A DNA stretch of 64,000 nucleotides from Halopseudomonas xinjiangensis (GTDB taxonomy: Bacteria > Pseudomonadota > Gammaproteobacteria > Pseudomonadales > Pseudomonadaceae): positions 3,313,001-3,377,000 of the forward strand of contig NZ_LT629736.1 in NCBI RefSeq assembly GCF_900104945.1, in the 5' to 3' direction. The notes beneath the pieces are model-generated. The model was not told the DNA's origin and did no database searches. It was given only the letters and a program-made list of their open reading frames with translations. Shown here in pieces: positions 1-18,100 of this stretch. Position 1 is the stretch's first letter. The number at the start of each line of letters is the position of its first letter. A program made the translations under genes and the position numbers.

Positions 1-1622
1 TCCCGGTCTACACCCTGCTCGACCGTGCGGCTGAGCGTTTCCCGGATCGTCCGGCTATCGACTTCTTCGGCAGCAAGCTCAGCTACCGTCGCCTGAGCGA
101 GCTGGTCGAGCACGCTGCAGCGGGGTTTCAGTCGCTGGGCGTCAAGCCCGGCGTGCATGTTGGCCTTTACCTTCCCAATACGCCGCACTATTACATCGCA
201 TTCTTCGGTGTCCTGCGAGCCGGTGGCACGGTCGTCAACTATTCGCCGTTGGACGCCGAACGCACGCTCGAACACAAGATCGAGGATAGCGAGACCGATG
301 TGATGGTCACGCTCGATCTGGCCGCGTTCTACCCGAAGATGGTCAGCCTGCGTCAGCGCACGCGTCTGAAGCATCTGGTCGTCGGCTCGCTGGGTGATTT
401 CTGCGAAACGCTCACCGATGCTCAGGCCCAATCTCTCGGGCCTGTGGCGGAGAGCGACACAGCCGATGGCTCTGTGCACTTCACCAAACTGCTGGATAAC
501 GACGGCAAGTACCACGCATACCGAATCGCCGACCCGGCGCGCGAATTGGCCGTACTGCAGTACACCGGTGGCACCACCGGCGCACCGAAGGGCGCCATGC
601 TCACCCATGGCAACATCACTACCTCCTGCGCGCAGCTCGAAGAAATTCTGCGCGGTACGCTCGAACCCGGCAATGAGCGCGTGCTGGCCGTTCTGCCGCC
701 TTTCCATATTTACGCATTGATGGTGAATATGGTGTTCGGCCTGAGTATGGGTTCCGAGATCCATCTGCATCCTCGCTTCGACGTCGAAGCAGCACTGCGC
801 GAGATCAGTGAAAGCCGGATCACCACTTTCCCCGGCGTGCCGACCATGTTCATCGGCCTGTTGAGCCACCCGGCGACGGCCAGCCATGACCTGACCTCGC
901 TGAAGATGTGCAACTCCGGCGGCGCGCCTTTGCCGGTCGAAGTCCAGCAGCAGTATGGCCGAGTCGCCGGCTGCGCACTGAAGGAAGGCTGGGGCATGAC
1001 CGAAACCACCACCACCGGCACCTTCTCGCCGAAGGATGCCGAGCCGCGTCCGGGTTCGTGCGGTATTCCGGTGCCTGGCGCACGCATTCGCATCGCCCCG
1101 CTCGATGGCTCGGCTGGCAGCGTGCCGGTCGGCGAACGCGGCGAGGTGTGCATCGCCGGGCCGAACATTACCATCGGCTACTGGAAGCGCGACGATGCGA
1201 CCGCCGAGGCGATGACCGAGGATGGTTATCTGCGCACCGGCGATGTCGGATACATGGACGAGGACGGCTACGTATACATCGTCGACCGGACCAAGGACAT
1301 GATTCTCTGCAGCGGTTACAACGTCTATCCGCGGGTGATCGAGGAGGCCATCTACGAGATGCCCTGCGTCGAGGAAGTGTCGGTGATCGGCGTTGACGAT
1401 CCCTACCGCGGCCAGGCGCCGAAAGCCTTCATCAAGCTCAAGGCCGGCTCCGACCCGCTGGATTTCGAAACGCTGCAAGCCTTCCTTGAATCCCGACTGG
1501 GCAAGCATGAGCGCTTGCAGTCGATGGAAGTGCGTGATGCCCTGCCGCGCACGCCAGTCGGCAAGCTGTCGAAGAAGGAGCTATACGAAGAAGAAAGGCT
1601 GCGCGGGCAGGCCTGCGCCTGA
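1..1622 (+). CDS. Long-chain fatty acid-CoA ligase (5' end cut by window)
   Basis: ATP-dependent acyl-CoA synthetase of the ANL (AMP-binding) superfamily, which activates fatty acids to acyl-CoA via an acyl-adenylate. The frame is open from base 3 and reads PVYTLLDRAAERFPDRPAID before the first in-frame GTG at 153, so the true start lies outside the window and 153 is internal. Visible motifs are the phosphate-binding loop YTGGTTGAPKGAMLTHG near 560-610, the adenylate motif GWGMTETTTTG near 990-1020, YLRTGDVGYMDEDG near 1230-1270, and the C-terminal acceptor-lysine region TPVGKLSKKEL near 1550-1580. These fit a complete catalytic core. The substrate chain length cannot be told from sequence. 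A FadD-like long-chain enzyme is the usual call; a medium-chain or aryl ligase is the alternative. Confidence 0.9.
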   Translation, partial: PVYTLLDRAAERFPDRPAIDFFGSKLSYRRLSELVEHAAAGFQSLGVKPGVHVGLYLPNTPHYYIAFFGVLRAGGTVVNYSPLDAERTLEHKIEDSETDVMVTLDLAAFYPKMVSLRQRTRLKHLVVGSLGDFCETLTDAQAQSLGPVAESDTADGSVHFTKLLDNDGKYHAYRIADPARELAVLQYTGGTTGAPKGAMLTHGNITTSCAQLEEILRGTLEPGNERVLAVLPPFHIYALMVNMVFGLSMGSEIHLHPRFDVEAALREISESRITTFPGVPTMFIGLLSHPATASHDLTSLKMCNSGGAPLPVEVQQQYGRVAGCALKEGWGMTETTTTGTFSPKDAEPRPGSCGIPVPGARIRIAPLDGSAGSVPVGERGEVCIAGPNITIGYWKRDDATAEAMTEDGYLRTGDVGYMDEDGYVYIVDRTKDMILCSGYNVYPRVIEEAIYEMPCVEEVSVIGVDDPYRGQAPKAFIKLKAGSDPLDFETLQAFLESRLGKHERLQSMEVRDALPRTPVGKLSKKELYEEERLRGQACA

Positions 1623-1720
1623 CCCATCCCGGCTCTTTCGAGGAACAGGATCGTCGCTCCGCTGGTCGGAAAGGCATGTTTTGCCGATAATGGCGCCCTT
1701 CTGACCTAGGAGATTTTTTC

Positions 1721-2695
1721 ATGCTGATGGCCATCGCTGCTGTAATCGCCGGACTGGCGCTGCTGGTATGGAGTGCCGACAAGTTCGTCGAAGGCGCATC
1801 GGCCACTGCCACCCATGCGGGCATGCCTACGCTGCTGGTCGGCATGTTGATCATCGGTTTCGGCACCTCTGCTCCGGAAATGGTGGTTTCGGCACTGGCT
1901 GCCTCCCAAGGTAATCCTGGACTGGCGCTGGGCAATGCCTACGGCTCGAACATCACCAATATCGCGTTGATCATCGGCCTTGTCGCGGTCATCAGTCCGA
2001 TCTCGGTGCACTCGCAGGTGTTGCGCAAGGAATTGCCGGTGCTGATGGGCGTCACGCTGCTGGCGGGCTATCAGCTGATCGATGGCCAGCTCAGCCGGAT
2101 GGACGCCTGGGTGTTACTGGGGGCGTTCTTCCTGCTGATGGGCTGGTCGATCGTGCAGGGGCTGCGTGGTCGCGGCGATGCGCTGGAAACCGAGTACGAC
2201 GCCGAACTGAAGGCGAACGCTATGCCGTTGAAGCCGGCACTGATCTGGCTGTTCGTCGGCCTGCTATTGCTGGTGCTCAGCTCGCGGGTGCTGGTCTGGG
2301 GCGCGGTCAGCATCGCTCAAAGTCTCGGCGTCAGCGATCTGATCATCGGCCTGACCATCGTCGCCATCGGCACCTCACTGCCGGAGCTGGCCTCTTCCAT
2401 CGCAGCCATCCGCAAGAATGAGCACGATCTGGCCCTCGGCAACGTGATCGGCTCGGGCCTGTTCAACACCCTCGCCGTGGTCGGTATCGCCGCCGGCATC
2501 ATGCCGTTGTCGGTCGACTCGGTCGTGCTCTATCGCGACTGGGTGGTGATGGCAGCGTTGACGCTCGCACTGTTCATCATGGGTATCGGTCTGCGCGGTC
2601 GGCAAGGTCGTATCAACCGGGTCGAAGGCGGGATACTGCTTTGCGTGTATGCCGCCTATACCGGCTACCTCGCCTACACCATCATCGGCGCCTGA
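1721..2695 (+). CDS. Calcium/sodium antiporter, YrbG family
   Basis: Inner-membrane cation exchanger of the CaCA superfamily, 324 aa and very hydrophobic throughout. The two inverted alpha-repeats typical of the family are clear: GFGTSAPEMVVS (about residues 46-57), followed by LGNAYGSNITNIA, and AIGTSLPELASS (about 214-225), followed by LGNVIGSGLFNTLA. The glutamate in each repeat is the ion-coordinating residue in this family. The ATG is preceded by AGGAG (1709-1713). An 8-bp-stem hairpin follows the gene. In E. coli the yrbG homologue starts the lpt/kds cluster, but here it stands alone. Physiological direction and ion specificity are inferred from the family only. Confidence 0.88.
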   Translation: MLMAIAAVIAGLALLVWSADKFVEGASATATHAGMPTLLVGMLIIGFGTSAPEMVVSALAASQGNPGLALGNAYGSNITNIALIIGLVAVISPISVHSQVLRKELPVLMGVTLLAGYQLIDGQLSRMDAWVLLGAFFLLMGWSIVQGLRGRGDALETEYDAELKANAMPLKPALIWLFVGLLLLVLSSRVLVWGAVSIAQSLGVSDLIIGLTIVAIGTSLPELASSIAAIRKNEHDLALGNVIGSGLFNTLAVVGIAAGIMPLSVDSVVLYRDWVVMAALTLALFIMGIGLRGRQGRINRVEGGILLCVYAAYTGYLAYTIIGA

Positions 2696-2720
2696 CCACC
2701 GGACGTTCCGATCGGCCAAC

Positions 2721-2739
2721 GGCTGCGGATACCGCAGCC
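2721..2739. terminator. Hairpin after yrbG-like gene
   Basis: GGCTGCGG-ATA-CCGCAGCC is a perfect 8-bp stem with a 3-nt loop, 26 bases after the exchanger stop codon. There is no T-tract, so it is either a Rho-assisted terminator or an mRNA 3'-end stabiliser. Confidence 0.4.
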
Positions 2740-2788
2740 AGGCGGTGTATGATGGCGGACGAACACGAAAGAGACCGATTGAGCTTCG

Positions 2789-3502
2789 ATGACTGACACT
2801 ACTCCCCGCACGCCGCAGCACAAACCCCGCCCGATGGTCGATCTGCTGGTCAGCATTCTGCTGCCGTCAGTGATCCTGATGAAGTTCAGTGGTGACGATG
2901 ACCTGGGCGCGCCGCTGGCGCTTATCGTGGCGCTGGCGTTTCCGATCGGCTGGGGTCTTTTCGAGCTGCTGCGCTACCGCAAATTCAACTTCATCGCCGT
3001 ACTCGGGGTCGTCAGCGTCATGCTTACCGGCGGCATCGGGCTGTTCGAGTTGGATCCGCAATGGCTGGCGATCAAGGAAGCCGCGGTGCCGGGTGTGATC
3101 GGCATCGCCGTGCTCGTGTCGACGCGCACGCGTTATCCGTTGATTCGTACGCTGCTGTACAACGATACCGTGCTGAACGTTGCGCGGGTTCAGGAGCGCC
3201 TGGAAGAGCACGGTCAGGTGTCGGTGTTCGAGGAACGCCTTTCGCGCGCGACTTACTTCCTTGCCGGAACCTTCTTCTTTTCTTCTGTCATGAACTACCT
3301 TGTCGCCAAATGGATCGTGACCAGCCCGGCGGGGACCAGCGCATTCAATGAAGAGCTCGGCCGCATGACGCTGGTCAGTTATCCGGTGATCGCGCTTCCG
3401 ACCATGATCATGATGGTGTTGATCATGCTGTATCTGTGGAAAACCATTCACGGCCTGACCGGCCTGAAGATGGAAGATATCGTCGCGCAGAAGGCAAGCT
3501 GA
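2789..3502 (+). CDS. VC0807-family membrane protein
   Basis: A 237-aa integral membrane protein of unknown biochemical role. The pattern resembles the VC0807 family found across gammaproteobacteria. Hydrophobic segments lie at about residues 13-30, 37-52, 60-78, 90-105, 153-175 and 198-220. The soluble stretch in the middle (residues ~105-150) contains TRYPLIRTLLYND. The C-terminal tail is charged. It is probably monocistronic, with a short gap and hairpins on both sides. Some annotation pipelines call such proteins MFS-like, but nothing here shows a transporter signature, so no function is claimed. Confidence 0.7.
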   Translation: MTDTTPRTPQHKPRPMVDLLVSILLPSVILMKFSGDDDLGAPLALIVALAFPIGWGLFELLRYRKFNFIAVLGVVSVMLTGGIGLFELDPQWLAIKEAAVPGVIGIAVLVSTRTRYPLIRTLLYNDTVLNVARVQERLEEHGQVSVFEERLSRATYFLAGTFFFSSVMNYLVAKWIVTSPAGTSAFNEELGRMTLVSYPVIALPTMIMMVLIMLYLWKTIHGLTGLKMEDIVAQKAS

Positions 3503-3512
3503 GCGCAGCCCA

Positions 3513-3530
3513 GCGCCGGGTCCCCGGCGC
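3513..3530. terminator. GC-rich hairpin after VC0807-family gene
   Basis: GCGCCGGG-TC-CCCGGCGC is an 8-bp perfect stem just after the stop codon at 3502. A perfect 18-bp palindrome, GAGAGGCTCGAGCCTCTC, follows at 3550-3567. Neither has a T-tract. They sit between two converging genes (stops at 3502 and 3587) and could end both transcripts. Confidence 0.45.
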
Positions 3531-3586
3531 GATAGCAGACTCTTCGTATGAGAGGCTCGAGCCTCTCGCTCTGAACCTCCCCAAGC

Positions 3587-3826
3587 TCAGCGACCCGAGC
3601 CGCCTTCCCTCGCCATCGATATATACAGGGCCTCAACCTTCTCGCGAGCCCAGGGCGTCTTCCGCAGAAAGCGCAGGCTCGATTTCACGCTCGGGTCATG
3701 CGTGAAGCAGCGAATGTTGATGCGCTGCCCAAGCCCTTCCCAACCGTACCGGTCAACCAATTCGTTGATCATGCGCTCCAGCGTAACGCCGTGGAGGGGA
3801 TCCCGGGATGGGGTTGGGTCGGGCAT
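3587..3826 (-). CDS. VF530-like small DNA-binding protein (DUF2132)
   Basis: A 79-aa protein matching the VF530/DUF2132 pattern. It has the conserved opening [20 protein letters not shown] and the later [35 protein letters not shown] (positive-rich, predicted helix-turn-helix-like fold). A Vibrio fischeri member has a solved structure and is annotated as DNA-binding; no cellular role is established. Length equals the family norm. It starts with ATG at 3824-3826 and runs convergent to the VC0807-family gene. Confidence 0.8.
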
Positions 3827-4139
3827 AGGAAGGGCTCCGTTCGATGTTCCAGGCAGATAAGACTACCGCACGCTGCGATCTGGGGGCGAATCGGGCAGTT
3901 GACCGCGCATGTGAATCCCTCGACTTGCCTTGCATGGTGACCCGGGTGGCTTCGCGGAGGGTCGCCTGCCGTTCGAGAAGAACAGATCGATCCAGTGGAC
4001 TACTCTAGCTCCATTGATCACGACGATCAGACAGTCCCAGCGAAGCGGATCACGCAGACGCTAAGGGATGCCTCGCATTTTTTGAAGCGACACCGGTTAG
4101 CGAAGTACCAGACCATCTAAATTTTTGGAGGAGAAACAC
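3827..4139. other. Intergenic region before MDR gene
   Basis: 313 bases with no convincing gene. It contains a short palindrome TGATC-N5-GATCA at 4015-4029, which could be an operator for the downstream dehydrogenase, and the Shine-Dalgarno GGAGGAG at 4128-4134. The short frames on either strand have no ribosome site and no recognisable composition. Confidence 0.4.
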
Positions 4140-5267
4140 GTGTCAGATACCAACATCGAACTGATTTCGACGATTAGCGAAGACAACAAACTGGAACTTG
4201 CCCTGCGCGAGATCGAGATCCCACAGCCGGGCGAGAACCAGGTGGTCATCCGCATCGAAGCCGCCCCAATCAACCCGTCTGACCTGGGAGTCATGTTCAG
4301 CGTGGCGGATATGACCACCGCCAGGCAATCCGGCAGCGCTGATCGCCCGGTCATCAGTGCCGACGTGCCGCCCAAATTCATGGGCGCAGTGAAGAAGCGG
4401 GTTGGCAAGTCCATACCCGTGGGCAACGAAGGCGCGGGTACCGTCGTCGCCGCGGGCTCATCAGCCGCTGCGCAGAGCCTGATGGGCAAAACCGTTGCGT
4501 TCATTGGCGGGGGTAGCTACCGCAAATACGTATGCGCCAATGTGCAAAGCTGTCTGGAACTTGAGCCGGGTACGACGGCAGTCGAAGGCGCATCAAGCTT
4601 CGTTAATCCGCTGACCGCATTGGCCATGGTAGAAACCATGCGCGCCGAAGGTCACAAGGCTATCGTTCACGCTGCGGCGGCCTCTAACCTCGGACAAATG
4701 CTCAACCGCATCTGTATCGCCGACGGCATCGACCTGGTCAATATTGTCCGCAAGCCGGAGCAGGAAGCCTTGCTGCGCGAGCAGGGTGCCAAGTACGTGG
4801 TCAATTCGAGTAGCGACAGCTTTATGGCAGACCTGACCCAGGCACTGATCGACACCGGCGCGACCATCGCCTTCGACCCTATCGGCGGCGGTCGCCTGGC
4901 CAGTGACATCCTCACCTGCATGGAAGCCGCCGTCTCCCGCGACATGACTGAATACAACGTGTACGGTTCTGACATCTACAAGCAGGTGTATATCTATGGC
5001 GGCCTTGATCGCGGTCCCATCACGCTGAACCGCACCTTTGGTTTTGCCTGGGGTGTAAACGGCTTTCTGTTGTTCAATGCGTTAGGAAAGCTGGGTCAGC
5101 ACACCGCCGCCGCCATGCGCAAACGCGTCGCGGCCGAAATCAAAACCACGTTCGCCAGCCACTACACCCACGAAGTATCCCTGTCCGGTGCGTTACAGCT
5201 GGATGCGATCTCGGTTTACGGCAAGCAGGCGACCGGAGAGAAGTTCCTGATCAAACCACAGAGCTAA
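4140..5267 (+). CDS. Zinc-independent MDR-family dehydrogenase/reductase
   Basis: A 375-aa medium-chain dehydrogenase/reductase. The N-terminal GroES-like domain includes APINPSDLG and GNEGAGTVVAAGS. The C-terminal nucleotide-binding domain includes the Rossmann-like AIVHAAAASNLGQMLNR, with the EQGAKYVVNSS pattern following. The Cys/His zinc ligands of alcohol dehydrogenases are absent, so this is closer to quinone- or enoyl-reductase-like MDRs. Start choice: GTG at 4140 sits 6 bases after GGAGGAG; the in-frame TTG at 4125 overlaps the ribosome site and is rejected. Substrate is unknown. It borders the accessory segment at 5.4-9.5 kb, and whether it belongs to that segment is unclear. Confidence 0.8.
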   Translation: MSDTNIELISTISEDNKLELALREIEIPQPGENQVVIRIEAAPINPSDLGVMFSVADMTTARQSGSADRPVISADVPPKFMGAVKKRVGKSIPVGNEGAGTVVAAGSSAAAQSLMGKTVAFIGGGSYRKYVCANVQSCLELEPGTTAVEGASSFVNPLTALAMVETMRAEGHKAIVHAAAASNLGQMLNRICIADGIDLVNIVRKPEQEALLREQGAKYVVNSSSDSFMADLTQALIDTGATIAFDPIGGGRLASDILTCMEAAVSRDMTEYNVYGSDIYKQVYIYGGLDRGPITLNRTFGFAWGVNGFLLFNALGKLGQHTAAAMRKRVAAEIKTTFASHYTHEVSLSGALQLDAISVYGKQATGEKFLIKPQS

Positions 5268-5298
5268 CGTTTAGCGGCTGGCCATGAGGCCATCTTAA

Positions 5299-5327
5299 GG
5301 CGTTGGAGTCAGATTGATTCCAGCGCC
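5299..5327 (+). terminator. Possible terminator hairpin after MDR gene
   Basis: GGCGTTGGA and TCCAGCGCC form a 9-bp stem (one G-U pair) around an 11-nt loop, 32 bases after the stop. There is no T-tract, so support is weak. Confidence 0.3.
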
Positions 5328-5437
5328 TGCATGGACAATGCGCTGGGGGATGGGGCGTTTGAAGAAAATCCCCCACGGTTGTTGGTTTGGTTGACACGAA
5401 AAAAATATTCGCTTTCTTTTTGCGCCACTTTTCTCTG

Positions 5438-7606
5438 CTAGCATTTGGACATGGCTTTGTAGTGGTCCGGGAACCCCGTTACCTCAAAAACCAGCTTGAA
5501 TCCCTCCCTGAAGGCGTCATAGTTAAATTCCTTCATATCTATGATGTTCTGGCCTAGTGAATGTGACTCCCGATTGATATATCGGCAAAAGGCTTGGAAC
5601 TTCGCATCTTGGAGTTCCGGCATCTGAAAAACGTTATTCAGGTCTTTCTTGCGCACAAAGTTGAAAAAGTACTCGACTATGTTGCGCATGCAGTTTGCGA
5701 TAAGTGCCGGCGGTTGAGACTGGTCGTTGACAACGGACCAGTACGCTTGATAGTCATTTTGAACTTCCTCGTATTTCATCTCTTGGATGACGCTGCCAGA
5801 AGAGGGCTTTGAAAGTCTAAACAATTTCTGTGTTTTTTCACGGCGCTCGTGATTCGGATCTGTCATCTCGTAGAAGAAGTAGAGGCTATGGGTTAAGACA
5901 ATAACCTGACTGAATCGATCCCCTTTGAAGAAAACTGAACGAATGAGTTGCCCGACGTTAAAAACGTATACATGAGAAAGGCTCGAAATTGGATCGTCTA
6001 TCACCGCGATGCGCTGAGCGTGGGTGTCCTCTGAGCTGGCCTTACCTTTACACAGCTCGCAGAAGTATAAGAAGCTGATCATCATCTTCTCCCCCTCGCT
6101 TAGTGAGTGAAATGCATCTTTCGAATCGCCGGCCCGCACCACTCGATAGAGATTTTCAGAATGCTTCCGTACGCTGAAATCATCTATGCCGAGGTCAATA
6201 AGCCCCGCATTTATAGCGGCGACCGCATGGTCAATATTTACTGTCTGTTTTTGTGCGTCCGCAATTTCTTTCCTCACCTTAGCCAGGTCAGTATCGATAT
6301 TTCCGATCTCTACCATTAAGCCTTTCAATTGCCGGTCAGCAGCCTGTTGGTCGGCATCAAACCTCGATATCGTTTGGTCAAACTGCCACCGCATTAGTTT
6401 CCAAAATTCGTTTCGTAAGTTATCGAGAGCAGATTTACGGTTCTTGAGCTTGTCGTTGTATTCGTCGATTTCCGTGTTAATCAAATCTATTACTGAGTTG
6501 AAATCGGCGATCAGGCCAGCCGTGTCGGATAGCGTAGCCGGAAATTTCGGGCTCTTTATTTTTTCTTCAATCTTGCGGACATTACTCTCGATCTCGCCCA
6601 CGAATAACTGATATTTGTTGGTTATAGAGTCCTTGTGCTTTTGCGAAAAGGGATGGTCGGTAAAAGGACTCAGCCCAAGCAACGAATCGAAGGCGGCTCG
6701 GTAAATCTTTAGAAGTTGAGCAAGCTCATCTAACTGCTGCTCGTAGGTCACATCAAAATACGACCTCACGCTGTCGATAAATTTCTCTGAAATCGTTGCT
6801 TCCTGACAGAATGGGCATTGTGCGTTTGAATTACGTACGCTTTCCGGTAGGTACGAAAGGCCTTGCTTTACCCAGTCCGAGCTGCCCAACTTTTCGATTA
6901 GAGCGGCAACCTCGCTATCGCTATTCCCAAGGATGGATTTTTGGAACACTGCGTCCGACTCGACACCATGAGCAGAAAAAGAAATAGTTGCCAGGCGCGG
7001 TTGAAGCTGAGCTTCATCACCTTGGAGTGCTTCCACTTCCTGCCGGATTGTTTGAACGTCTTTTTTTGGTTCACCGGCAGGTTTCGGGATGCTTTGGAGA
7101 TGGGCAAAAAGCTTGTCCTTTTGTCCCTTTAGACCTTCGAGACAGTACTCAAGAACGCGATCACCGCCTGCATAGGTCTGCTTGATGCTCCAAACTTTCT
7201 CTATGGCCTGATATTTTTTTTGAGAAAATGCGCGTGTTGCCGATTCCTGTTCACTGCGCTTATCTTTTAGGTCTTGCTCAAGCTCACCTTGCCTTTTTGT
7301 CGAGTCGACTATCTTTTGTTCAGCTTCTTTGTTCTCTTTTGAAAGGCTGAAGATGCCTTGCAACCGATCCGCGACATAAAAGTTGTCTCGGATGAAAGCT
7401 TGGTTGTAAACGAGAACTGGAACCGATGCTGCGGGTACCTTTTTGCATAAGATGAACGCAGAATCATTGGGCTCATAAAAAAAATTTGAGATTGTTGATT
7501 TGCCGGTTCCGTTTAGGCCGTAGATAAGATTTATTTTCCTATCCGTAACGAGCGATGTGGCTTTCTTAAAGCTCGCCACTGCATTCATGTGGATTTCGGT
7601 AATCAC
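5438..7606 (-). CDS. RloC/PrrC-like zinc-hook ATPase, predicted anticodon nuclease
   Basis: A 722-aa AAA_13-type ABC ATPase. Seen: Walker A GLNGTGKST (residues 30-38); long charged coiled-coil arms interrupted by a zinc-hook-like CPFC (264-267) between them; ABC signature SLSEGEK (501-507); Walker B IAVIDDPISS (533-542); and an H-loop VLTHS (His573). The C terminus has R641 and E645 (spaced by four), followed by RYINRESH ending at His682. Family knowledge: E. coli PrrC uses R320-E324-H356 for tRNA anticodon cleavage, RloC proteins add a CXXC zinc hook, and HEPN nucleases carry R-X4-6-H (here R675-X6-H682). Inference: a nucleotide-regulated anticodon nuclease used in phage or DNA-damage defence. 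The gene is AT-richer than its surroundings, and no type I restriction genes (PrrC partners) are present. A 133-aa gene lies 86 bp upstream. The alternative is a non-nucleolytic SMC-like ATPase. Confidence 0.72.
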   Translation of the reverse strand: MITEIHMNAVASFKKATSLVTDRKINLIYGLNGTGKSTISNFFYEPNDSAFILCKKVPAASVPVLVYNQAFIRDNFYVADRLQGIFSLSKENKEAEQKIVDSTKRQGELEQDLKDKRSEQESATRAFSQKKYQAIEKVWSIKQTYAGGDRVLEYCLEGLKGQKDKLFAHLQSIPKPAGEPKKDVQTIRQEVEALQGDEAQLQPRLATISFSAHGVESDAVFQKSILGNSDSEVAALIEKLGSSDWVKQGLSYLPESVRNSNAQCPFCQEATISEKFIDSVRSYFDVTYEQQLDELAQLLKIYRAAFDSLLGLSPFTDHPFSQKHKDSITNKYQLFVGEIESNVRKIEEKIKSPKFPATLSDTAGLIADFNSVIDLINTEIDEYNDKLKNRKSALDNLRNEFWKLMRWQFDQTISRFDADQQAADRQLKGLMVEIGNIDTDLAKVRKEIADAQKQTVNIDHAVAAINAGLIDLGIDDFSVRKHSENLYRVVRAGDSKDAFHSLSEGEKMMISFLYFCELCKGKASSEDTHAQRIAVIDDPISSLSHVYVFNVGQLIRSVFFKGDRFSQVIVLTHSLYFFYEMTDPNHERREKTQKLFRLSKPSSGSVIQEMKYEEVQNDYQAYWSVVNDQSQPPALIANCMRNIVEYFFNFVRKKDLNNVFQMPELQDAKFQAFCRYINRESHSLGQNIIDMKEFNYDAFREGFKLVFEVTGFPDHYKAMSKC

Positions 7607-7692
7607 CTATCGCAGTCTCCTACTCCAGATCACATGAAGCCGAGCTATTCGGCGGTTTTTAAGGCGGGACACTTAAGAGATTGTTACGCTGG

Positions 7693-8094
7693 CTATACTG
7701 GGTCTCCTGAAGACCTACTTTTAAAGCCGGGATGAATCATCTTTTTATATGCATTTGCGACGGAGCTAAGCTGGATACTCATTTCAGAAATTTTATCAGT
7801 CGACCAGGTCTCTGGAGATACCCAATATTCAGCTTTATGCTCACAAACAATAGCAAGCTCTCGGTCTATGTGACGCAGAGGAATCGCTGCCGCGGCCCAA
7901 TATTTCGCTAGCTGTGCCTCGGTTTCGTAATTTCTTTTATAATCCCTAGCCATGCCGGCATAATAAATTTGCGTTTCCTTTAGGGCGGTAGAGATTGCGC
8001 GCAAAGCGTTATCTCTTAGCTCTCTTTTATCTTTTTCAAGAGTAGCTATCGGCCCTAACAGCTTGGTTAAGCTTTCTACAACGTACTCAATCAT
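7693..8094 (-). CDS. Small helical protein of unknown function upstream of RloC-like gene
   Basis: A 133-aa protein beginning MIEYVVESLTKLLG. Start choice: ATG at 8092-8094 is preceded by AAAGGA at the right distance. The frame stays open up to 8295, but that extension runs through attC-like and palindromic DNA. The only tempting longer start (ATG in the segment reading MSIKVLFYTHLISLLGY) would add one hydrophobic helix. The body is mostly alpha-helical and charged, with conserved-looking aromatic segments YYAGMARDYKRNYE and EHKAEYWVSPETWS. I do not recognise a domain. It has the same strand as the RloC-like gene and is 86 bp before it, so co-transcription is plausible. It could be an accessory or immunity factor, or simply another cassette gene. 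Confidence 0.6.
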   Translation of the reverse strand: MIEYVVESLTKLLGPIATLEKDKRELRDNALRAISTALKETQIYYAGMARDYKRNYETEAQLAKYWAAAAIPLRHIDRELAIVCEHKAEYWVSPETWSTDKISEMSIQLSSVANAYKKMIHPGFKSRSSGDPV

Positions 8095-8192
8095 TATTAT
8101 TTTTCCTTTTACTGAATTCCCCGCGGCCGCGATGTAGCCGAGCAGTGAGATTAGGTGTGTGTAAAAAAGGACTTTTATTGACATCCTTTGGG

Positions 8193-8199
8193 CCATAAC
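8193..8199 (-). other. Half attC site (R' box only)
   Basis: Reading the minus strand, GGCGGGGTTATGG ends in the R' core GTTATGG, identical to the R' core of the attC at 8593-8669. No matching R'' box (RYYYAAC) is found in the preceding 120 bases, where an inverted-repeat element lies instead. I read it as a decayed or interrupted attC at the left edge of the 133-aa gene. Confidence 0.4.
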
Positions 8200-8239
8200 C
8201 CCGCCAACAAGTGCACGGTCTAGGGGAGACGAACAAACT

Positions 8240-8282
8240 GGGGTCAGATGAATATTTCTCTCAGAAACCTTCATCTGACCCC
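8240..8282. repeat. 13-bp inverted repeat, GGGGTCAGATGAA type
   Basis: GGGGTCAGATGAA (8240-8252) and TTCATCTGACCCC (8270-8282) are perfect inverted arms around a 17-nt loop. GGGGTCAG-ended palindromes of this look occur in many gammaproteobacterial genomes beside Y1 (IS200-like, REP-associated) transposase genes. No such transposase is present here, so this would be a non-autonomous copy. It lies exactly where the left half of an attC would be expected. Confidence 0.6.
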
Positions 8283-8316
8283 AATTTCCTCTCACAGAAT
8301 GTAGTAACTAAACACA

Positions 8317-8565
8317 TCATCGGTCCTCTTGCACTTTATTTACAGTCCCGTAGCCACCATTTCGCACAAAGCCATCACCGCTAGGTATCAAGTCTGTTAT
8401 CACAACAAAAGTAGACTCTACTTGCTTCCCAGGGTTATACCCCTCAAATTCTTCTTTGTTATGGCAATCAATGATTTCCTTAAAAACAGCCGAATCCCCT
8501 TCGTTTATCTCTACAGGCGTATAAATCGGAATATCAAAAAAGAACTTACTTAAGGTTAAATCCAT
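8317..8565 (-). CDS. Cassette-borne hypothetical protein, 82 aa
   Basis: An 82-aa acidic protein beginning MDLTLSKFFFDIPIYTPVEI. Start choice: ATG at 8563-8565, preceded by GAGAGAGGA. The frame is open up to 8712, but the extension reads across the attC at 8593-8669 and into the next gene, so it is rejected. No domain is recognised. It follows the attC site by 27 bases, which is the usual layout of an integron cassette gene. The sequence downstream of its stop runs into the GGGGTCAG palindrome instead of an intact attC. Confidence 0.6.
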   Translation of the reverse strand: MDLTLSKFFFDIPIYTPVEINEGDSAVFKEIIDCHNKEEFEGYNPGKQVESTFVVITDLIPSGDGFVRNGGYGTVNKVQEDR

Positions 8566-8592
8566 GAATCCTCTCTCTCTTAAGTGGTAGCG

Positions 8593-8669
8593 CCATAACG
8601 CGACGCTATGCGGAAATCCTAGAGCCGCGAAGCGGTGGAAAAATTGTCCGGCCCAGCGTATTGTTATAG
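8593..8669 (-). other. Integron attC recombination site (attC2)
   Basis: On the minus strand it begins with CTATAAC (R''-like), ends with GTTATGG (R'), and is 77 bp long. The inner arms pair as ACGCT with AGCGT. The centre holds CCGCTTCGCGGC, which is also in the next site. The stop codon of the 131-aa membrane protein lies 6 bp before it and the next gene starts 27 bp after it. This spacing and structure match gene-cassette boundaries. Confidence 0.7.
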
Positions 8670-8674
8670 ACGAC

Positions 8675-9070
8675 CTAAAATCTCTGAGAGGTTGGAACAA
8701 CACCGACTCCAACCGCTATACCGCCCAACAAAGACCCGACGTTATAGGCCCAGTTCGTATCCCCGAAAATCTGGGCAATAAGACTTGCGCCCCCCAGCAG
8801 CAGAATAACCAGAAGCGTAATGTATGATATCCAGCGAAAATAAAGACTGTCATCCAAAAATTGGTGGGCACGGCCTCTCAGCACTTCCCAGAACATGAAG
8901 CCGGCGAACGCTATTACGAAGCCAAGAATATAGCCAGATACAAACTTATAGAGGTTTGGTACTCCTAATTCTCGAATTTGCTCAGAGGTTGAAATCAAAA
9001 GCATCCAAGCCAGGAAGCCAACAACGGCTATGCCAAACTCCCAGATTCGTAATTTGTCAGTGTTACTCAA
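8675..9070 (-). CDS. Cassette-borne four-helix membrane protein, 131 aa
   Basis: A 131-aa integral membrane protein with about four hydrophobic segments: residues ~11-27 (FGIAVVGFLAWMLLIS), 42-63 (FVSGYILGFVIAFAGFMFW), 80-100 (ISYITLLVILLLGGASLI) and 108-126. It begins with TTG at 9068-9070 behind a strong GGAGGA site that follows directly from the attC R' box. No ATG is available before residue 22. No family is recognised. Small membrane proteins of unknown role are common cassette cargo; a toxin, an immunity factor or a stress protein cannot be separated from sequence. Confidence 0.65.
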   Translation of the reverse strand: MSNTDKLRIWEFGIAVVGFLAWMLLISTSEQIRELGVPNLYKFVSGYILGFVIAFAGFMFWEVLRGRAHQFLDDSLYFRWISYITLLVILLLGGASLIAQIFGDTNWAYNVGSLLGGIAVGVGVVPTSQRF

Positions 9071-9079
9071 GCTTTCCTC

Positions 9080-9157
9080 CTATAACGCCCGGCACACGTG
9101 CCGATTTGTAGCCGCGAAGCGGCGGAGAAGCGGTCACCGTGCTGCCGCTTGTTAGGC
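9080..9157 (-). other. Integron attC recombination site (attC1)
   Basis: On the minus strand it begins with the perfect R'' box GCCTAAC, followed by AAGCGGCAGCAC, and ends GTGTGCCGGGCGTTATAG, with R' GTTATAG. It is 78 bp long. GGCA(G)CAC pairs with GTGTGCC leaving one extrahelical G, a hallmark of attC folding. The core contains CCGCCGCTTCGCGGC. The gene before it stops 10 bp away and the next gene's ribosome site abuts its end. Confidence 0.75.
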
Positions 9158-9166
9158 GCAACCAGC

Positions 9167-9478
9167 CTAGTTGCCATAGCCCGGCCGCCACGGTTCTTGC
9201 TCAATTGCTGCAAGATTGCCTTGGCCCAACTGAAGCCAGAGTTTAAGCACGTATTCACGGCTAACGGATTTCATGTGCCTCGGCTCACCCTGTTCAAGAT
9301 TCTCCCAGACAACCAGGCCTCCTGGGTAGGCGCCGAGACACCATTCACTCTCATGTGTCAGCGAGACCGAATTGTGTTCTTCATCTTCTATATCGAGTTG
9401 AGCGAGTAGCTCCTTCATTTGCGCCTCCGTAGTGTCGGATTCGCAGTGCCCCCAGCGGTTATGGGTGTGATACGCCAC
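9167..9478 (-). CDS. Cassette-borne hypothetical protein, 103 aa
   Basis: A 103-aa acidic soluble protein starting with GTG at 9476-9478, preceded by GAGGA. It contains YPGGLVVWENLEQGEP and ends with a C-terminal ENLxxGEPRHM...VLKLWLQLGQGNLAAIEQEPW stretch rich in Trp and Leu. Its general look resembles small immunity-type proteins, but I cannot assign a family. A degenerate core GCCTAAT (9494-9500 on the plus strand, one base from RYYYAAC) lies just upstream and may mark the old cassette boundary. Its stop is 10 bp from attC1. Confidence 0.6.
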   Translation of the reverse strand: MAYHTHNRWGHCESDTTEAQMKELLAQLDIEDEEHNSVSLTHESEWCLGAYPGGLVVWENLEQGEPRHMKSVSREYVLKLWLQLGQGNLAAIEQEPWRPGYGN

Positions 9479-9982
9479 TTTGCTTCCTCGGCTGCCTAAT
9501 AGTAATTAGATGGAATTCCAGCATATTGCATATTGGTTGCTTCCACATATTCCCGCCAATGCCGGACCGGTGGGAGTGGGTTTTCCTCATGGAAACAACC
9601 ACTTGCTATTCCGCTCGGCTCGACACCTGTAATCGCGTGACTTCCACATTTGGTCCGCTCAATATTCCGCCCGTCGAGGCGCTAGCCATTACAGCAGGCG
9701 TGCGAGCTCAGAACCTGCGACGGTTTTGACAGAGAAGCTACCGCCCTGCCGGTGCCAAGAAGGCTTAGCATGCGTGTGTATAAAAGGCTGGGGATGAGAC
9801 GGCTGTCCTTGCCGCTAGGCGGGTGTATCGACGGCATCCCTTGCCGACTTCGAGCATATATCAGGGGTAGGGCTTTTCCAACGGTGTGATTGGACTGCGA
9901 AATTCAGCAGACCTAAGGCACACCGAGCAGATTCAACGAAGGTTGAGCCTGCTCAGCGTGCTATCAGCATTGCGAAGAGTGG
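9479..9982. other. 504-bp gap between cassette array and aminotransferase
   Basis: I see no supported gene. The 67-codon frame at 9526-9729 (+) lacks a ribosome site and has no protein-like pattern. The segment contains the degenerate cassette core GCCTAAT at 9494-9500 and, at its right end, the hairpin listed separately at 9925-9954. No integron integrase, attI or cassette promoter could be identified. Confidence 0.4.
9925..9954 (-). terminator. Hairpin after class V aminotransferase gene
   Basis: GAGCAGATTCAAC and GTTGAGCCTGCTC form a 13-bp stem with two mismatches and a GAAG loop, 28 bases after the aminotransferase stop. There is no strong T-tract on the minus strand. Confidence 0.4.
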
Positions 9983-11113
9983 TCAGCCCTTAACCGCGTC
10001 CAACGCCTGGCGCAGGTTGCTCACGGTGCGCTCGATATTGTGCAGTTTATCCAGGCCGAACAGGCCGACGCGGAAAGTTTTGAAGCCGGCGGGCTCGTCG
10101 CACATCAGCGGTACGCCGGCTGCGGTCTGCAGGCCCTGGGCGATGAATGCCTTGCCGTTCTGAATGCTGGCATCGGTGGTGTAGCAAACCACTACGCCTG
10201 GCGCGCCGAAGCCGTCGGCGGCGACGCTGGCGAAGCCCTTTTCCTGCATCAAAGCGCGCACGGCACGGCCTAGTTCCAGCTGCTCCTGCTTGACCTTGTC
10301 GAAGCCGTAATCGCGGGTTTCCAGCATGGTGTCGCGGAAGCTGCGCAGGGCATCGGTGGGCATGGTGGCGTGGTAGGCGTGGCCGCCATTTTCGTAGGCC
10401 TGCATGATCTGCCGCCATTTCTTCAGGTCACAGGCGAAGCTGTCGCTGCTGGTTTCGGCCAGGCGCTGTTCGGCACGCTCGCTGAACATGACCAGGGCGC
10501 TGCAGGGTGAGGCGCTCCAGCCTTTCTGCGGAGCACTGATCAGTACGTCCACTGCGCAGGCCTGCATGTCCACCCAGACGGTGCCGGAGGCGATGCAGTC
10601 GAGTACGAACAGACCGCCGACTTCGCGAACGGCTTCGCCCACGGCGCGCAGGTAGTCGTCAGGCAGCATGATGCCGGCTGCGGTTTCGACGTGCGGTGCG
10701 AAGACGATATCCGGCTTGCGGCTGCGGATTTCTGCCACGACTTCTTCGATAGGTGCTGGCGCAAACGGTGCCTGATCGCCGGTACCGGTCTGGCGTGCCT
10801 TGAGTACGACTTCCTCGGCGGGCATGCCGCCCATCTCGAAGATCTGGCTCCAGCGATAGCTGAACCAGCCGTTGCGAATAACCATGCAGCGCTTGTTGCG
10901 GGCGAACTGGCGCGCCACCGCTTCCATGCCGTAGGTGCCGCCACCCGGGACCACGGCGACTGCGGAGGCCTGGTAGACCTGCTTCAGCGTGCCGGATATA
11001 TCACGCATCACCTCCTGAAAGGTTTGCGACATGTGGTTCAGGGAGCGGTCGGTAAAGACGACGGAATATTCGAGCAGGCCGTCCGGATCGACGGTGGGGA
11101 CCAGGCTGGACAC
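9983..11113 (-). CDS. Class V aminotransferase, alanine-glyoxylate type
   Basis: A 376-aa PLP enzyme of the class V (AGT/SGT) family, which transfers amino groups from alanine or serine to a 2-oxoacid such as glyoxylate. Seen: the substrate-side motif VPGGGTYGMEAVARQF (about residues 55-70), the aspartate loop FVLDCIASGTVWVDM (about 165-180), and the PLP lysine in SAPQKGWSAS (about 190-200). It starts with GTG at 11111-11113 after GGAG. It lies 147 bp downstream of spuH on the same strand, so it may be read through from the polyamine operon. A role in amino-group disposal is inferred. 2-Aminoethylphosphonate or serine aminotransferases of the same fold are alternatives. Confidence 0.8.
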   Translation of the reverse strand: MSSLVPTVDPDGLLEYSVVFTDRSLNHMSQTFQEVMRDISGTLKQVYQASAVAVVPGGGTYGMEAVARQFARNKRCMVIRNGWFSYRWSQIFEMGGMPAEEVVLKARQTGTGDQAPFAPAPIEEVVAEIRSRKPDIVFAPHVETAAGIMLPDDYLRAVGEAVREVGGLFVLDCIASGTVWVDMQACAVDVLISAPQKGWSASPCSALVMFSERAEQRLAETSSDSFACDLKKWRQIMQAYENGGHAYHATMPTDALRSFRDTMLETRDYGFDKVKQEQLELGRAVRALMQEKGFASVAADGFGAPGVVVCYTTDASIQNGKAFIAQGLQTAAGVPLMCDEPAGFKTFRVGLFGLDKLHNIERTVSNLRQALDAVKG

Positions 11114-11260
11114 GGTGGTTTCTCCAAGCGGGTGTAAACAGGCAGTGCCGGGCAGACCGGCGACGAAGGGGATTATCCTAACCCGATTCGGGCGGTCCAG
11201 TCGCGTAACGCTGATCTAGGGCAGGAAGCCGGGGCTGCGCAGTGCACGCCCCGGTCTCGA

Positions 11261-12124
11261 TCAATTGCGGCGACTGTCGATGGCGTCCTTCCAGGTTGGC
11301 GCGGCCTCCGCTTCCGGCATCCGCGAGCGCTTCTCGGCGCTGCGGGCGACGAACCAGGCCAGTAGGGTGAACAGCGACACGGCAAGCAGGATCAGGCTGG
11401 CGATGGCGTTGATGTCCGGCTTGACGCCCAGGCGCACGGCAGAGAAGACTTCCATCGGCAGGGTGGTCGCGCCGGGGCCGGAAACGAAGCTGGCCAGAAC
11501 CAGGTCATCCAGCGACAGCGTGAACGCCAGCAGCCAGCCGGCGAAGATCGACGGCGCGATCATCGGCACGGTGATCAGCAGGAAGGTCTTCCATGGTGGC
11601 GAACCGAGATCCAGCGCGGCTTCTTCGATGGACTGATCCAGCTCACCCAGACGGCCGCTGACCACGATGGCCACGTAGGCCGTGGAGAAGGTGGTATGGG
11701 CGATCCAGATGGTCACCATGCCGCGCTCGGCCGGCCAGCCAACCAGTTGGGCCATGGAGACGAACAGCAACAGCAGCGACAGGCCGGTGATCACTTCGGG
11801 CATCACCAGCGGTGCGGTGACCAGTCCGGAGAACAGCGTACGGCCGCGGAAGCGCTTGATGCGCGTCATGACGAATGCCGCGAGCGTACCCAGCAGTACC
11901 GCGGCACATGCGGTGAAAAAGGCGATCTGCAGACTACGCTGAACCGCGTTGATCAACTGCTGATTATCCAACAGGCCGACGTACCAGCGAATCGACCAGC
12001 CACCCCAGACGGTGACCAGGCGCGAGTCGTTGAACGAATAGATCACCAGGATGAGCATCGGCACATAGATAAATGCCAGGCCCAGCCAGAGCATCACGGT
12101 GGAGAAGGTCGAGCGAGTGTTCAT
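11261..12124 (-). CDS. spuH: Spermidine/putrescine ABC transporter permease SpuH
   Basis: A 287-aa inner-membrane permease of the PotC type. It has six hydrophobic segments and the cytoplasmic EAA loop EEAALDLGSPPWKTFLLITVP (around residues 168-188), which contacts the ATPase. ATG at 12122-12124 overlaps the stop of the preceding permease gene (ATGA), indicating translational coupling. It is the last transport gene of the spuDEFGH set. The C-terminal extension MPEAEAAPTWKDAID is hydrophilic. Confidence 0.9.
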   Translation of the reverse strand: MNTRSTFSTVMLWLGLAFIYVPMLILVIYSFNDSRLVTVWGGWSIRWYVGLLDNQQLINAVQRSLQIAFFTACAAVLLGTLAAFVMTRIKRFRGRTLFSGLVTAPLVMPEVITGLSLLLLFVSMAQLVGWPAERGMVTIWIAHTTFSTAYVAIVVSGRLGELDQSIEEAALDLGSPPWKTFLLITVPMIAPSIFAGWLLAFTLSLDDLVLASFVSGPGATTLPMEVFSAVRLGVKPDINAIASLILLAVSLFTLLAWFVARSAEKRSRMPEAEAAPTWKDAIDSRRN

Positions 12125-13026
12125 GCGTTCTTCTCCATTTCTCTGGACTGGTTGTAGTGGAACAGGATGATCGGAATCAGCAGGATCAGCAGCATGATGA
12201 TCGCCAGCGCCGAGGCGATCGGCCAGTCGCGGTTATTGAAGAACTCCTGCCACAGCACCTTGCCGATCATCAGCGTCTCGGGGCCACCGAGCAGCTCGGG
12301 AATGACGAACTCACCGACGACCGGGATGAACACCAGCATCGAGCCGGCGATGATGCCGCTCTTCGACAGCGGCACGGTAACCGTCCAGAACGCTTTGGTT
12401 TTGCCGGCGCCGAGATCCATGGCTGCTTCCAGCAGGCTCATGTCGTGCTTCACGAGGTTGGCATACAGCGGCAACACCATGAACGGCAGATACGCGTAGA
12501 CGACACCGATATACACGGCCGTATCGGTGTTGAGGATGGGGATCGGCGAGTCGGTAATCCCCATGCCCATCAGCGCCGAATTGAGCAGGCCGTTGGTGCT
12601 GAGAATGCCCATCCAGGCGTATACGCGGATCAGAATCGCGGTCCAGGTCGGCATCATCACCAGCAACAGGTAAACCAGCTGTTTGTCCTTGGGCGCGCGG
12701 GCGATGGCGTAGGCCATCGGGTAGCCGAGGGCGAGACACACCAGGGTAGAGAAGAAGGCGATCTTCAGCGAGCCGAGGTAGGCCGAGTAGTACAGCGAGT
12801 CGCTGGCCAGGAAAAGGTAGTTGCCCAGATTCAGCGCGATATTCAGCGATTGCTGGGCGTATTCGAGCAGTGGCTCATAGGGCGGAATGGCAATCGCCGC
12901 TTGCGAAAAGCTGATCTTCAGTACGATGGCAAAGGGCAGCAGAAAGAACAGGAACAGCCACAGGTATGGGATGCTGATGACCCACAGCTTCCCGCTCGGG
13001 AGCAGTCGCGACAACCCCCTGCTCAT
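12121..13026 (-). CDS. spuG: Spermidine/putrescine ABC transporter permease SpuG
   Basis: A 301-aa PotB-type permease with an N-terminal membrane segment YLWLFLFFLLPFAIVLKISF and an EAA loop LLEAAMDLGAGKTKAFWTVTVP. Start choice: ATG at 13024-13026 overlaps the stop of spuF (ATGA); the longer frame to 13083 runs inside spuF and is rejected. It pairs with SpuH to form the membrane channel. Confidence 0.9.
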   Translation of the reverse strand: MSRGLSRLLPSGKLWVISIPYLWLFLFFLLPFAIVLKISFSQAAIAIPPYEPLLEYAQQSLNIALNLGNYLFLASDSLYYSAYLGSLKIAFFSTLVCLALGYPMAYAIARAPKDKQLVYLLLVMMPTWTAILIRVYAWMGILSTNGLLNSALMGMGITDSPIPILNTDTAVYIGVVYAYLPFMVLPLYANLVKHDMSLLEAAMDLGAGKTKAFWTVTVPLSKSGIIAGSMLVFIPVVGEFVIPELLGGPETLMIGKVLWQEFFNNRDWPIASALAIIMLLILLIPIILFHYNQSREMEKNA

Positions 13027-14159
13027 GACTGCAGTACCACGCCGGCGTCGTCTTCCCAGCTGATATAGACCTTGTCGTCCCACGTCGGACGCGGCAGTCG
13101 GCGCTCGGAGTTATGAAAGAACGCCTGAACCAGCAAACCGCTTTCGAGCTTGATGTAGTACACCGAATGACCGCCCAGGTAGGCGATGTCATGCACGTGG
13201 CCGTGGCCCCAGTTATGGTCTCCCTCGGGCTTTTCGGTGCTGACGAACAGCTTTTCCGGGCGCAGTGCATAGGTGATCTTCTTGTCCTGCGCGCGCGTGG
13301 AAATGCCGTGGCCGACATAGATATCACGGTCAAGGTGACGGCAGCGGATGATGGCGTGATCTTCCATGTCGCTGATGATTTCGCCTTCGAAGCTGTTCAC
13401 GCTGCCAATGAATTCGGCTACGTGACGGCTCACCGGACTTTCATAGATATCCATCGGTGTGCCGACCTGGGCGATCCAGCCCTGATGCATGATGGCGATC
13501 CGCTGGGCCATGGTCATGGCTTCTTCCTGGTCATGGGTGACCATGATGCAGGTCACGCCGACGCGCTCGATGATCTCGACCAGCTCCAGCTGCATCTGCG
13601 AGCGCAGTTTCTTGTCCAGCGCGCCCATCGGCTCGTCGAGCAACAACAGCTTCGGGCTCTTTGCCAGGGAGCGGGCCAGTGCCACGCGCTGACGCTGGCC
13701 ACCGGACAACTGGTTCGGCTTGCGCCGTGCGTAATCGGTCATGTGGACCAGCTTGAGCATCTGCTCGACGCGGTCGTTGATGTCGCTCTTGCTCATGCGG
13801 TCCTGCTTGAGACCGAAGGCAATGTTCTGCTCGACGGTCATGTGCGGAAACAGCGCATAGGACTGGAACATCATGTTGATCGGGCGCTTGTAGGGCGGCA
13901 GGTCGGTGATGTCCTGGCCGTCGAGCCACACACGGCCTTCGGAAGGTCGCTCGAAGCCGGCCAGCACGCGCAACAAGGTCGACTTGCCGGAGCCGGAGCC
14001 TCCGAGCAGGGCGAAAATCTCGCCGCGGTTGATGGTCAGGCTGACGTCGTCCACCGCCAATGCGTCGTCGAACCGCTTGCTGATCCGATCGATTTTCACG
14101 AACTCGTTCGGCTCGGCCTTGGCCATGGCCTGTTTCATGGCTCCTGCTGCACCAACCAT
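13023..14159 (-). CDS. spuF: Spermidine/putrescine ABC transporter ATP-binding protein SpuF
   Basis: A 378-aa ATPase of the PotA/CUT1-like group. Walker A is GGSGSGKST, the signature is [15 protein letters not shown], Walker B is [12 protein letters not shown], and the H-switch is [11 protein letters not shown]-terminal TOBE-like region follows. Start choice: ATG at 14157-14159 lies 7 bases after GTGGAG; the frame to 14216 has no ribosome site. It is separated from spuE by a terminator-like hairpin and coupled to spuG by ATGA. Confidence 0.92.
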
Positions 14160-14259
14160 ACTAATCTCCACTTGGCGATGCGAACGGCGCTCGCCTGGTC
14201 TGTACCGCTGACACAAAACTCAGCGGCGAATCATTCGATAGAACGGAATCGATACGAAA

Positions 14260-14281
14260 GGCCGCCCCTTGCGGGACGGCC
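14260..14281 (-). terminator. Hairpin between spuE and spuF
   Basis: On the minus strand GGCCGTCCC-GCAA-GGGGCGGCC is followed by TTTCG. It is a 9-bp stem with one G-U pair and a short T-run. It is probably a partial terminator that keeps permease/ATPase mRNA below binding-protein mRNA. Confidence 0.55.
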
Positions 14282-14290
14282 GGTACAGCG

Positions 14291-15445
<1,155 letters not shown>

Positions 15446-15452
15446 TTAGGGT

Positions 15453-15474
15453 TGCCGGGACCTTCGTCCCGGCA
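15453..15474 (-). terminator. Hairpin between spuD and spuE
   Basis: TGCCGGGAC-CTTC-GTCCCGGCA is a perfect 9-bp stem with a 4-nt loop in the 101-bp gap between the two binding-protein genes. There is no T-tract; it may act in processing or 3'-end protection. Confidence 0.4.
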
Positions 15475-15492
15475 GATTCAGCTTACAAGCCC

Positions 15493-16686
<1,194 letters not shown>

Positions 16687-18057: not shown

Positions 18058-18100
18058 CGGTACTCCTCTCCTCCGTAGGTGCCCGGCAGGGCAGCGGCAA

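Follow-up and report, generated by a model that had tools for sequence, protein, structure and literature searches.

RloC is a known, little-studied suicide or dormancy device resembling PrrC, the EcoPrrI-linked anticodon nuclease. The RloC group is defined by PrrC-like ATPase motifs, an insert bearing a CX2C zinc hook, and an R-X3-E-X36-52-H triad in which a Ser often precedes the His; its members are 658-897 aa long, and 13 of 70 start with GUG (PMC2610378). In RloC of Geobacillus kaustophilus, activity was abolished by an Ala change at any of the triad residues (PMC2610378), and RloC of Acinetobacter baylyi, which cleaves tRNA-Glu and tRNA-Gln, is activated by DNA breaks, also in restriction-deficient mutants (PMC3874168). 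RloC was furthermore detected in a study of Streptococcus thermophilus, the available passages of which contain no test of it (PMC12322248). PrrC has a size of 341-416 aa and the triad R320/E324/H356 (PMC2610378), and classical PrrC is located within a type I restriction locus (PMC2610378, PMC3710099). Here, we analysed 64,000 nucleotides of the Halopseudomonas xinjiangensis genome (contig NZ_LT629736.1, positions 3,313,001 to 3,377,000; this whole stretch is called the window) and describe an rloC gene therein which most likely entered the genome as a gene cassette of a chromosomal integron and stayed when the integrase and its own attC site were lost. The new element is this proposed cassette origin; as an RloC, the protein is ordinary.

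The gene lies at about 3.32 Mb of the genome and encodes 722 aa on the minus strand, from a GTG start codon and without an internal stop, as seen from the listing of open reading frames (ORFs) and the translation. A preliminary description of this DNA, made from its letters, had already located in this frame the two Walker motifs, the ABC signature, the CPFC sequence and the residues R641, E645, R675 and H682. All of them were recovered as described (Table 1), and strand and start codon can now be added. The Pfam family AAA_13 matches residues 19-707 (5.5e-109), the ATPase motifs being interrupted by the insert that bears the CX2C zinc hook, and the C-terminus carries R641-X3-E645-X36-H682 with S681 just before H682. 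Among several PDC-S06 models of PADLOC, the best one matches over the full length (6.3e-259), and the PrrC model gives a weaker match (2e-14). PDC-S06 is a candidate family with a broad label, several models and no stated mechanism; the available passages of PMC11514479 mention it a single time, in a table listing loci. With a split ABC ATPase, the CX2C hook, R-X3-E-X36-H with its Ser, 722 aa and a GTG start, the gene is by its sequence a full-length and typical RloC orthologue. It has in common with RloC of G. kaustophilus and A. baylyi the split ATPase, the hook, the R-X3-E-X36-52-H triad with Ser, the size range, the GTG start and the lack of linked restriction genes. The tRNA anticodon cleavage with wobble excision and the activation by DNA breaks that are known from RloC are, for the window protein, predictions by analogy.

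To assess conservation, the window protein was aligned with 26 homologues scoring above 150 bits (25-85% identical), excluding L001 (the window itself), L012 (the same as L003) and frames shorter than 200 aa. N32 is kept in all 27 sequences, as are G30, G33, G35, K36, C264, C267, S503, E504, G505, D537 and D538, and the three triad residues, whose conservation among homologues the preliminary description had put forward as a check, are present in all or nearly all of them (Table 1), as is S681 (26/27). At least 25 of the 27 sequences agree in 73 of the 722 columns, 12 of which fall in residues 600-722 and include R641, E645, S681 and H682. Because of this conservation, the motifs are not due to chance. 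The count leaves out 15 matches of 150 bits or less, four of which are PrrC frames; the loose pattern R-X3-E...H was seen in 8 of the 11 others, the exceptions being L017, L033 (a fragment) and L035.

The C-terminal domain can also be aligned with PrrC. Seventeen PrrC frames, picked with the PADLOC PrrC model and measuring 378-532 aa between stops, all carry R641, E645, R675 and H682, and all are gapped at the hook positions C264 and C267. A profile-profile comparison of 11 sequences of the window family (A1) with 16 of the 17 PrrC frames (A4, without L043) aligned residues 483-714 with a probability of 95.6 and an E-value of 1.3e-8, placing NCMRNIVE over LRNLYE of PrrC and RYINRESHS over NRI..SH. 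Thus, the triad of the 722-aa protein is in register with that of PrrC, whose residue numbers, as quoted in the preliminary description, are indeed those of PMC2610378, and the RloC/PrrC-like identity proposed there agrees with the PDC-S06 match, the PrrC profile and all sequence features. The spacing R675-X6-H682, which had been noted as fitting the HEPN pattern R-X4-6-H, is real but not universal, R675 being found in all PrrC frames and in 21 of the 27 homologues. Membership in PrrC itself was rejected: unlike the PrrC frames, which are shorter and lack the hook, the window protein has 722 aa and a hook, and no restriction gene was found among the 16 ORFs scanned around it.

These 16 ORFs, spanning window positions 153-16608, contain no restriction family by Pfam, so that the earlier remark that the gene stands outside a restriction locus holds. 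As a distinguishing feature, however, this absence was rejected: in contrast to PrrC, only 8 of 72 RloC genes of the founding survey belong to a restriction locus of type I or III (PMC2610378), so that RloC genes as a rule lie apart from restriction genes. Elsewhere in the genome, at about 1.22 Mb, the family N6_Mtase (HsdM-type) matches at 1224404-1225318 and, about 3 kb away, HSDR_N matches at 1227920-1228552 in a 1086-aa frame. G000:C1:1224404-1228552 is thus apparently a type I restriction system far from rloC, and could possibly act on RloC in trans, a mode of regulation that the available passages of PMC3874168 leave open.

By analogy with the described systems, a Rad50-like ATPase with coiled coil and zinc hook would hold the C-terminal RNase off. 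DNA ends, for example from a phage breaking the host DNA, would shift the state of the ATPase, and with ATP turnover the R641/E645/H682 site would be freed. It would then cut a tRNA in the anticodon loop, translation would stop, and the spread of the phage would be limited. A role of the window protein in phage defence is plausible. That its C-terminal domain has a HEPN fold may be inferred from the assignment of PrrC and RloC to the HEPN superfamily (PMC3710099), and for a coiled coil in the insert the evidence is helical periodicity, which reaches z of at least 2 in windows within residues 71-210 and 365-462, is weak at 211-350, where the hook lies, and likewise exceeds 2 in two windows at 659-714.

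Several observations weigh against this functional picture. A Pfam scan of the C-terminal 123 aa with E-values up to 10 returned no HEPN family, although the HMMER filters discard most weak matches, and no solved structure in the PDB matched the 722-aa protein by sequence; the PrrC profile gave five PDB matches, the best at 0.0057. Two homologues deviate in the triad: L025 carries Q at position 682, and L061, a Streptococcus prophage relative annotated as 'translation-disabling ACNase RloC', carries D at position 645 and has no aligned His at 682. For A. baylyi RloC, the available passages of PMC3874168 do not demonstrate that the cell benefits. Finally, the tree is deep and the window protein occupies a single branch of it, and within this RloC subfamily no member of tested activity was seen. 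The last point would also fit an ATPase-HEPN RNase that retains the RloC architecture but differs in its target, being directed at another RNA (mRNA, rRNA or other sites in tRNA), or in its trigger, such as the state of the distant type I system, given that HEPN RNases vary in their targets (PMC3710099) and that HsdM-type and HsdR-type genes are present in the genome. We consider this unlikely: the protein has the triad, the Ser-His pair and the hook of RloC, its profile can be aligned with that of PrrC, and RloC of A. baylyi responds to DNA breaks even when its restriction proteins are missing (PMC3874168).

A DNA repair ATPase of the Rad50/SbcC type without RNase activity, suggested by the Rad50-like layout with its zinc hook and by weak matches to Rad50 and SbcC-like models, appears extremely improbable, since the conserved C-terminal triad domain is absent from Rad50, SbcC and gp46 (PMC2610378). 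The patchy distribution of the family also argues against it. Homologues were found at 10 loci in genome contigs, in 7 of 96 relatives and in 14 of 369 genomes of the class (the own genome being counted in both), and tblastn matches were obtained in 223 plasmid records and 9 phage records, 6 and 2 of which were fetched.

The anticodon nuclease candidate is embedded in the remains of an integron. The GC content amounts to 0.46 in rloC and 0.467 in window positions 5405-9496, as compared to 0.612 in the rest of the window. On the minus strand, an attI remnant is followed by a first small ORF, an attC site, a second small ORF, a second attC site, two further small ORFs and, in last position, rloC (Table 1). 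The attC sites were described by covariance models. Model R1 was built from six sites, among them both window sites and the sites downstream of the gene in L002, L003 and L009, and model R2 from 31 matches of R1, so that the training sites of R1 match by construction; the attC of L006 and the upstream attC of L003 lie outside both training sets. These models took the place of a cruder scan by motif and fold, which had overlooked the downstream sites of L002, L003 and L009. In the 31 aligned sites, 169 cells show changes on both sides, against a mean of 55.5 after shuffling and at most 36 when slid, a count that leans towards the model, to which the alignment had been fitted. Independently of the models, positions 9082-9155 are 86.5% identical to a Pseudomonas aeruginosa plasmid stretch between arr-2 and the next gene. 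The attI remnant corresponds to a segment directly upstream of an intI fragment in the sister genome G023 (89% identity), where the core reads GTTAGGC.

The evidence that rloC itself was a cassette comes from its six nearest relatives, L002-L005 and L009 (81-85% identical) and L006 (64%). In four of these six, an attC site directly follows the rloC stop codon, at 10190-10266 in L002, L003 and L009 and at 10206-10282 in L006 (E 0.00012, filters off). Sites upstream of the gene were found in L003 (7910-7974, E 9.2e-6) and L009 (7870-7973, E 0.013 with R1). A block of about 2.3 kb common to L002, L003 and L009, approximately 7969-10268, extends from cassette edge to cassette edge, that is from GTTATGTGC through the end of the attC; the downstream R'' sequence GCACATAAC and the upstream GTTATGTGC are exact reverse complements of each other in L002 and L003, with one mismatch in L009. 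The homology of the window begins at 7635, at the R' edge, and stops at 5435, just past the stop codon. In L009, further attC sites and a truncated intI lie about 4 kb upstream, and four of the six close relatives have an intI over the curated cut-off somewhere in their genomes. The preliminary description had placed the gene beside integron cassettes, and two attC sites and the attI remnant bear this out; mere adjacency, however, does not account for an attC of the gene's own in four of six close relatives. As several of the closest relatives carry the gene as an integron cassette, the window copy probably arrived as a portable anti-phage gene.

Other findings speak against a cassette origin of the window copy. 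The covariance models detected no attC belonging to the window rloC, the 5' edge of its former cassette is degraded, and no attC was found near the gene in L004 and L005, both more than 80% identical. The missing sites, together with more distant relatives on plasmids and in prophages that have no attC matches, could also indicate that the gene came with another mobile element and lies next to integron cassettes by coincidence. This is disfavoured, and we regard it as very unlikely, as attC directly follows the gene in four of six close relatives, the breakpoints are cassette edges, window homology starts at the R' edge, and rloC has the same orientation as the attC sites. Apart from these relatives, none of 23 further loci, with 22 RloC-type genes between them, showed an attC match up to an E-value of 0.5; L013 and L080 of this set represent the same gene, and seven loci (L023-L028, L054) comprise only about 1.5 kb of flank on each side. 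L013, from the same-genus genome G011, holds an RloC-type gene that is 33-34% identical, with no attC match nearby.

Furthermore, the same chromosomal site was compared in sister genomes. The quinone oxidoreductase gene to the left of the island has relatives of 89-98% identity in 20 of 36 other genomes of the genus, plus a split copy in one more. The stretch beyond this gene was read in six genomes and intI was searched in ten. In G001, the flanks corresponding to 3994-5404 and 9497-16790 are collinear with the window and enclose different content. All six stretches gave attC matches, that of L120 being weak (E 0.031). In G029, an integrase that exceeds the cut-off is found about 16 kb past the quinone oxidoreductase gene, and partial intI matches occur 3-13 kb beyond it in G015, G020, G023 and G035; the other five of the ten genomes have no intI match within 20 kb on that side. 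The partial matches are below the cut-off, and the intI family gives such below-cut-off matches in 14 of 14 control genomes. The short ones of G015 and G020 could therefore be other tyrosine recombinases and are weak evidence on their own; that of G023 reads by eye as an IntI N-terminus. In this genus, the location serves as an integron site.

In the H. xinjiangensis genome, no intI match exceeds the curated cut-off. Five weaker matches were obtained, none of them in the window; four fall into two frames of Xer size (331 and 316 aa), the remaining one into a frame of 39 aa. This 39-aa frame, with a short intI-like fragment at G000:C1:2039148-2039231, might be left over from the lost integrase or from another element. 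A second attC cluster with three matches is located at G000:C1:3043700-3045563, about 275 kb from that of the window.

The loss of the integrase, the mutated attI core, the missing attC of rloC, its last position in the array and the lack of a promoter-like excess would be compatible with a relic, i.e. an intact ORF that is silent and decaying in the genome. The promoter and terminator scan remained at chance level, with 4 promoter-like sites found versus 4.7 expected. The ratio of nonsynonymous to synonymous substitutions (dN/dS, NG86) between the window gene and five relatives was 0.126-0.178 for the whole gene and 0.076-0.179 for residues 601-722, values that average over all hosts; L006 was saturated and left out. 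With 0.094, the terminal branch of the window sequence falls among those of its five nearest relatives (0.046-0.12). Judged from these substitution patterns, rloC is under purifying selection. With a full-length ORF retaining all motifs and such low ratios, also in the C-terminal part, decay appears somewhat unlikely, and rloC may be expressed from its distal position.

The six sequences of more than 80% identity, window included, form one supported clade (99/98), whose hosts are named Bacterioplanes, Alcanivorax, Saccharophagus and others; since the clade spans such hosts, lateral movement is supported. Of carriage of this clade by phages or plasmids there was no sign, the best phage match being 31% identical and the best full-length plasmid match 48% among the matches listed. 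Five plasmid records with partial matches of 60-80% fall outside the 40 matches listed, which are ranked by coverage times identity. In viral contigs, one search found no relative and another found two, at 47% and 40% identity.

Integron integrases are generally under SOS control, a subject on which PMC3710099 cites work. As RloC responds to DNA breaks, broken DNA might be a single signal that both triggers the nuclease and allows the cassette to be moved or reordered. We tentatively propose that this RloC clade could have turned into a portable anti-phage alarm carried by integrons, in the form of a 2.3-kb cassette that moves between gammaproteobacterial families with its own attC, a reading that may or may not prove correct. 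Anti-phage cassettes of chromosomal and mobile integrons, reportedly described by Darracq 2025 and Kieffer 2025, have in common with the window locus a predicted defence gene in an array with attC sites. Integron defence genes are reduced and streamlined in size according to a 2025 integron-defence study as relayed in PMC12409362; in contrast, the rloC cassette measures about 2.3 kb and its protein has ordinary RloC length. The integron-cassette HEPN protein of PDB entry 3jrt is likewise a HEPN-type RNase in an integron, but is listed as a separate family, with no ATPase fusion given in the available passages of PMC3710099. The attC directly behind the gene in the close relatives is a setting absent from the published passages on RloC in PMC2610378 and PMC3874168, and the integron literature, as far as its texts on RloC, anticodon nucleases, PDC-S06 and phage defence were available, held no report of an RloC cassette; the tables of two 2025 Science papers could contain one. 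Evidence for a clade of full-size RloC cassettes bears on how large a defence gene may be for an integron to carry it and keep it silent until it is required, and the natural rloC copies with and without attC provide material for studying the cassette mobility of a toxic gene.

Table 1. Features of the rloC gene and of the integron array, in window coordinates; fractions give the sequences keeping a residue, out of 27 RloC-type sequences or out of 44 when PrrC frames are included.
Feature	Position	Strand	Evidence
rloC orthologue, 722 aa	5438..7606	-	ORF, Pfam AAA_13, PADLOC PDC-S06 and PrrC
Walker A GLNGTGKST, residues 30-38	7493..7519	-	G30, G33, G35, K36 27/27
Zinc hook CPFC, residues 264-267	6806..6817	-	C264, C267 27/27; helical periodicity on either side
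ABC signature SLSEGEK, residues 501-507	6086..6106	-	S503, E504, G505 27/27
Walker B, residues 533-542	5981..6010	-	D537, D538 27/27
R641, predicted catalytic Arg	5684..5686	-	27/27; 44/44 including PrrC
E645, predicted catalytic Glu	5672..5674	-	26/27; 43/44 including PrrC
R675, Arg of R-X6-H	5582..5584	-	21/27; 38/44 including PrrC
H682, predicted catalytic His, after S681	5561..5563	-	25/27; 42/44 including PrrC
Putative former rloC cassette, 5' end: degraded R' edge and ribosome-binding site (by eye)	7607..7635	-	homology to L002, L003, L004 begins at 7635
Small array ORF, start by eye (tool: 7693-8295)	7693..8094	-	phrog_12412 7.7e-20
Small array ORF, start by eye (tool: 8317-8712)	8317..8565	-	ORF listing
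attC site	8595..8670	-	76.1 bits; among the sites building the model
Small ORF, cassette	8675..9070	-	ORF listing
attC site	9082..9158	-	88.4 bits; among the sites building the model
Small ORF, first cassette	9167..9478	-	ORF listing
attI remnant, core ATTAGGC vs GTTAGGC	9493..9549	-	89% identity to the G023 stretch

A few minor observations were made in addition. An Rfam scan of window positions 1-20000 yielded nothing useful. An inverted repeat of 25 nt at 8235-8287, 88% complementary and with a 3-nt loop, has an 85% match in the array of G020. A pair of 18-nt inverted repeats, 7647-7664 and 8478-8495, is separated by 813 nt, one arm lying just upstream of the rloC cassette edge. After the rloC cassette of L002, at 10263-13064, follow several small genes that resemble toxin-antitoxin pairs by eye. 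On a Klebsiella plasmid, a gene annotated as a HEPN family nuclease (L062:4134-4634) adjoins a distant RloC-type gene.

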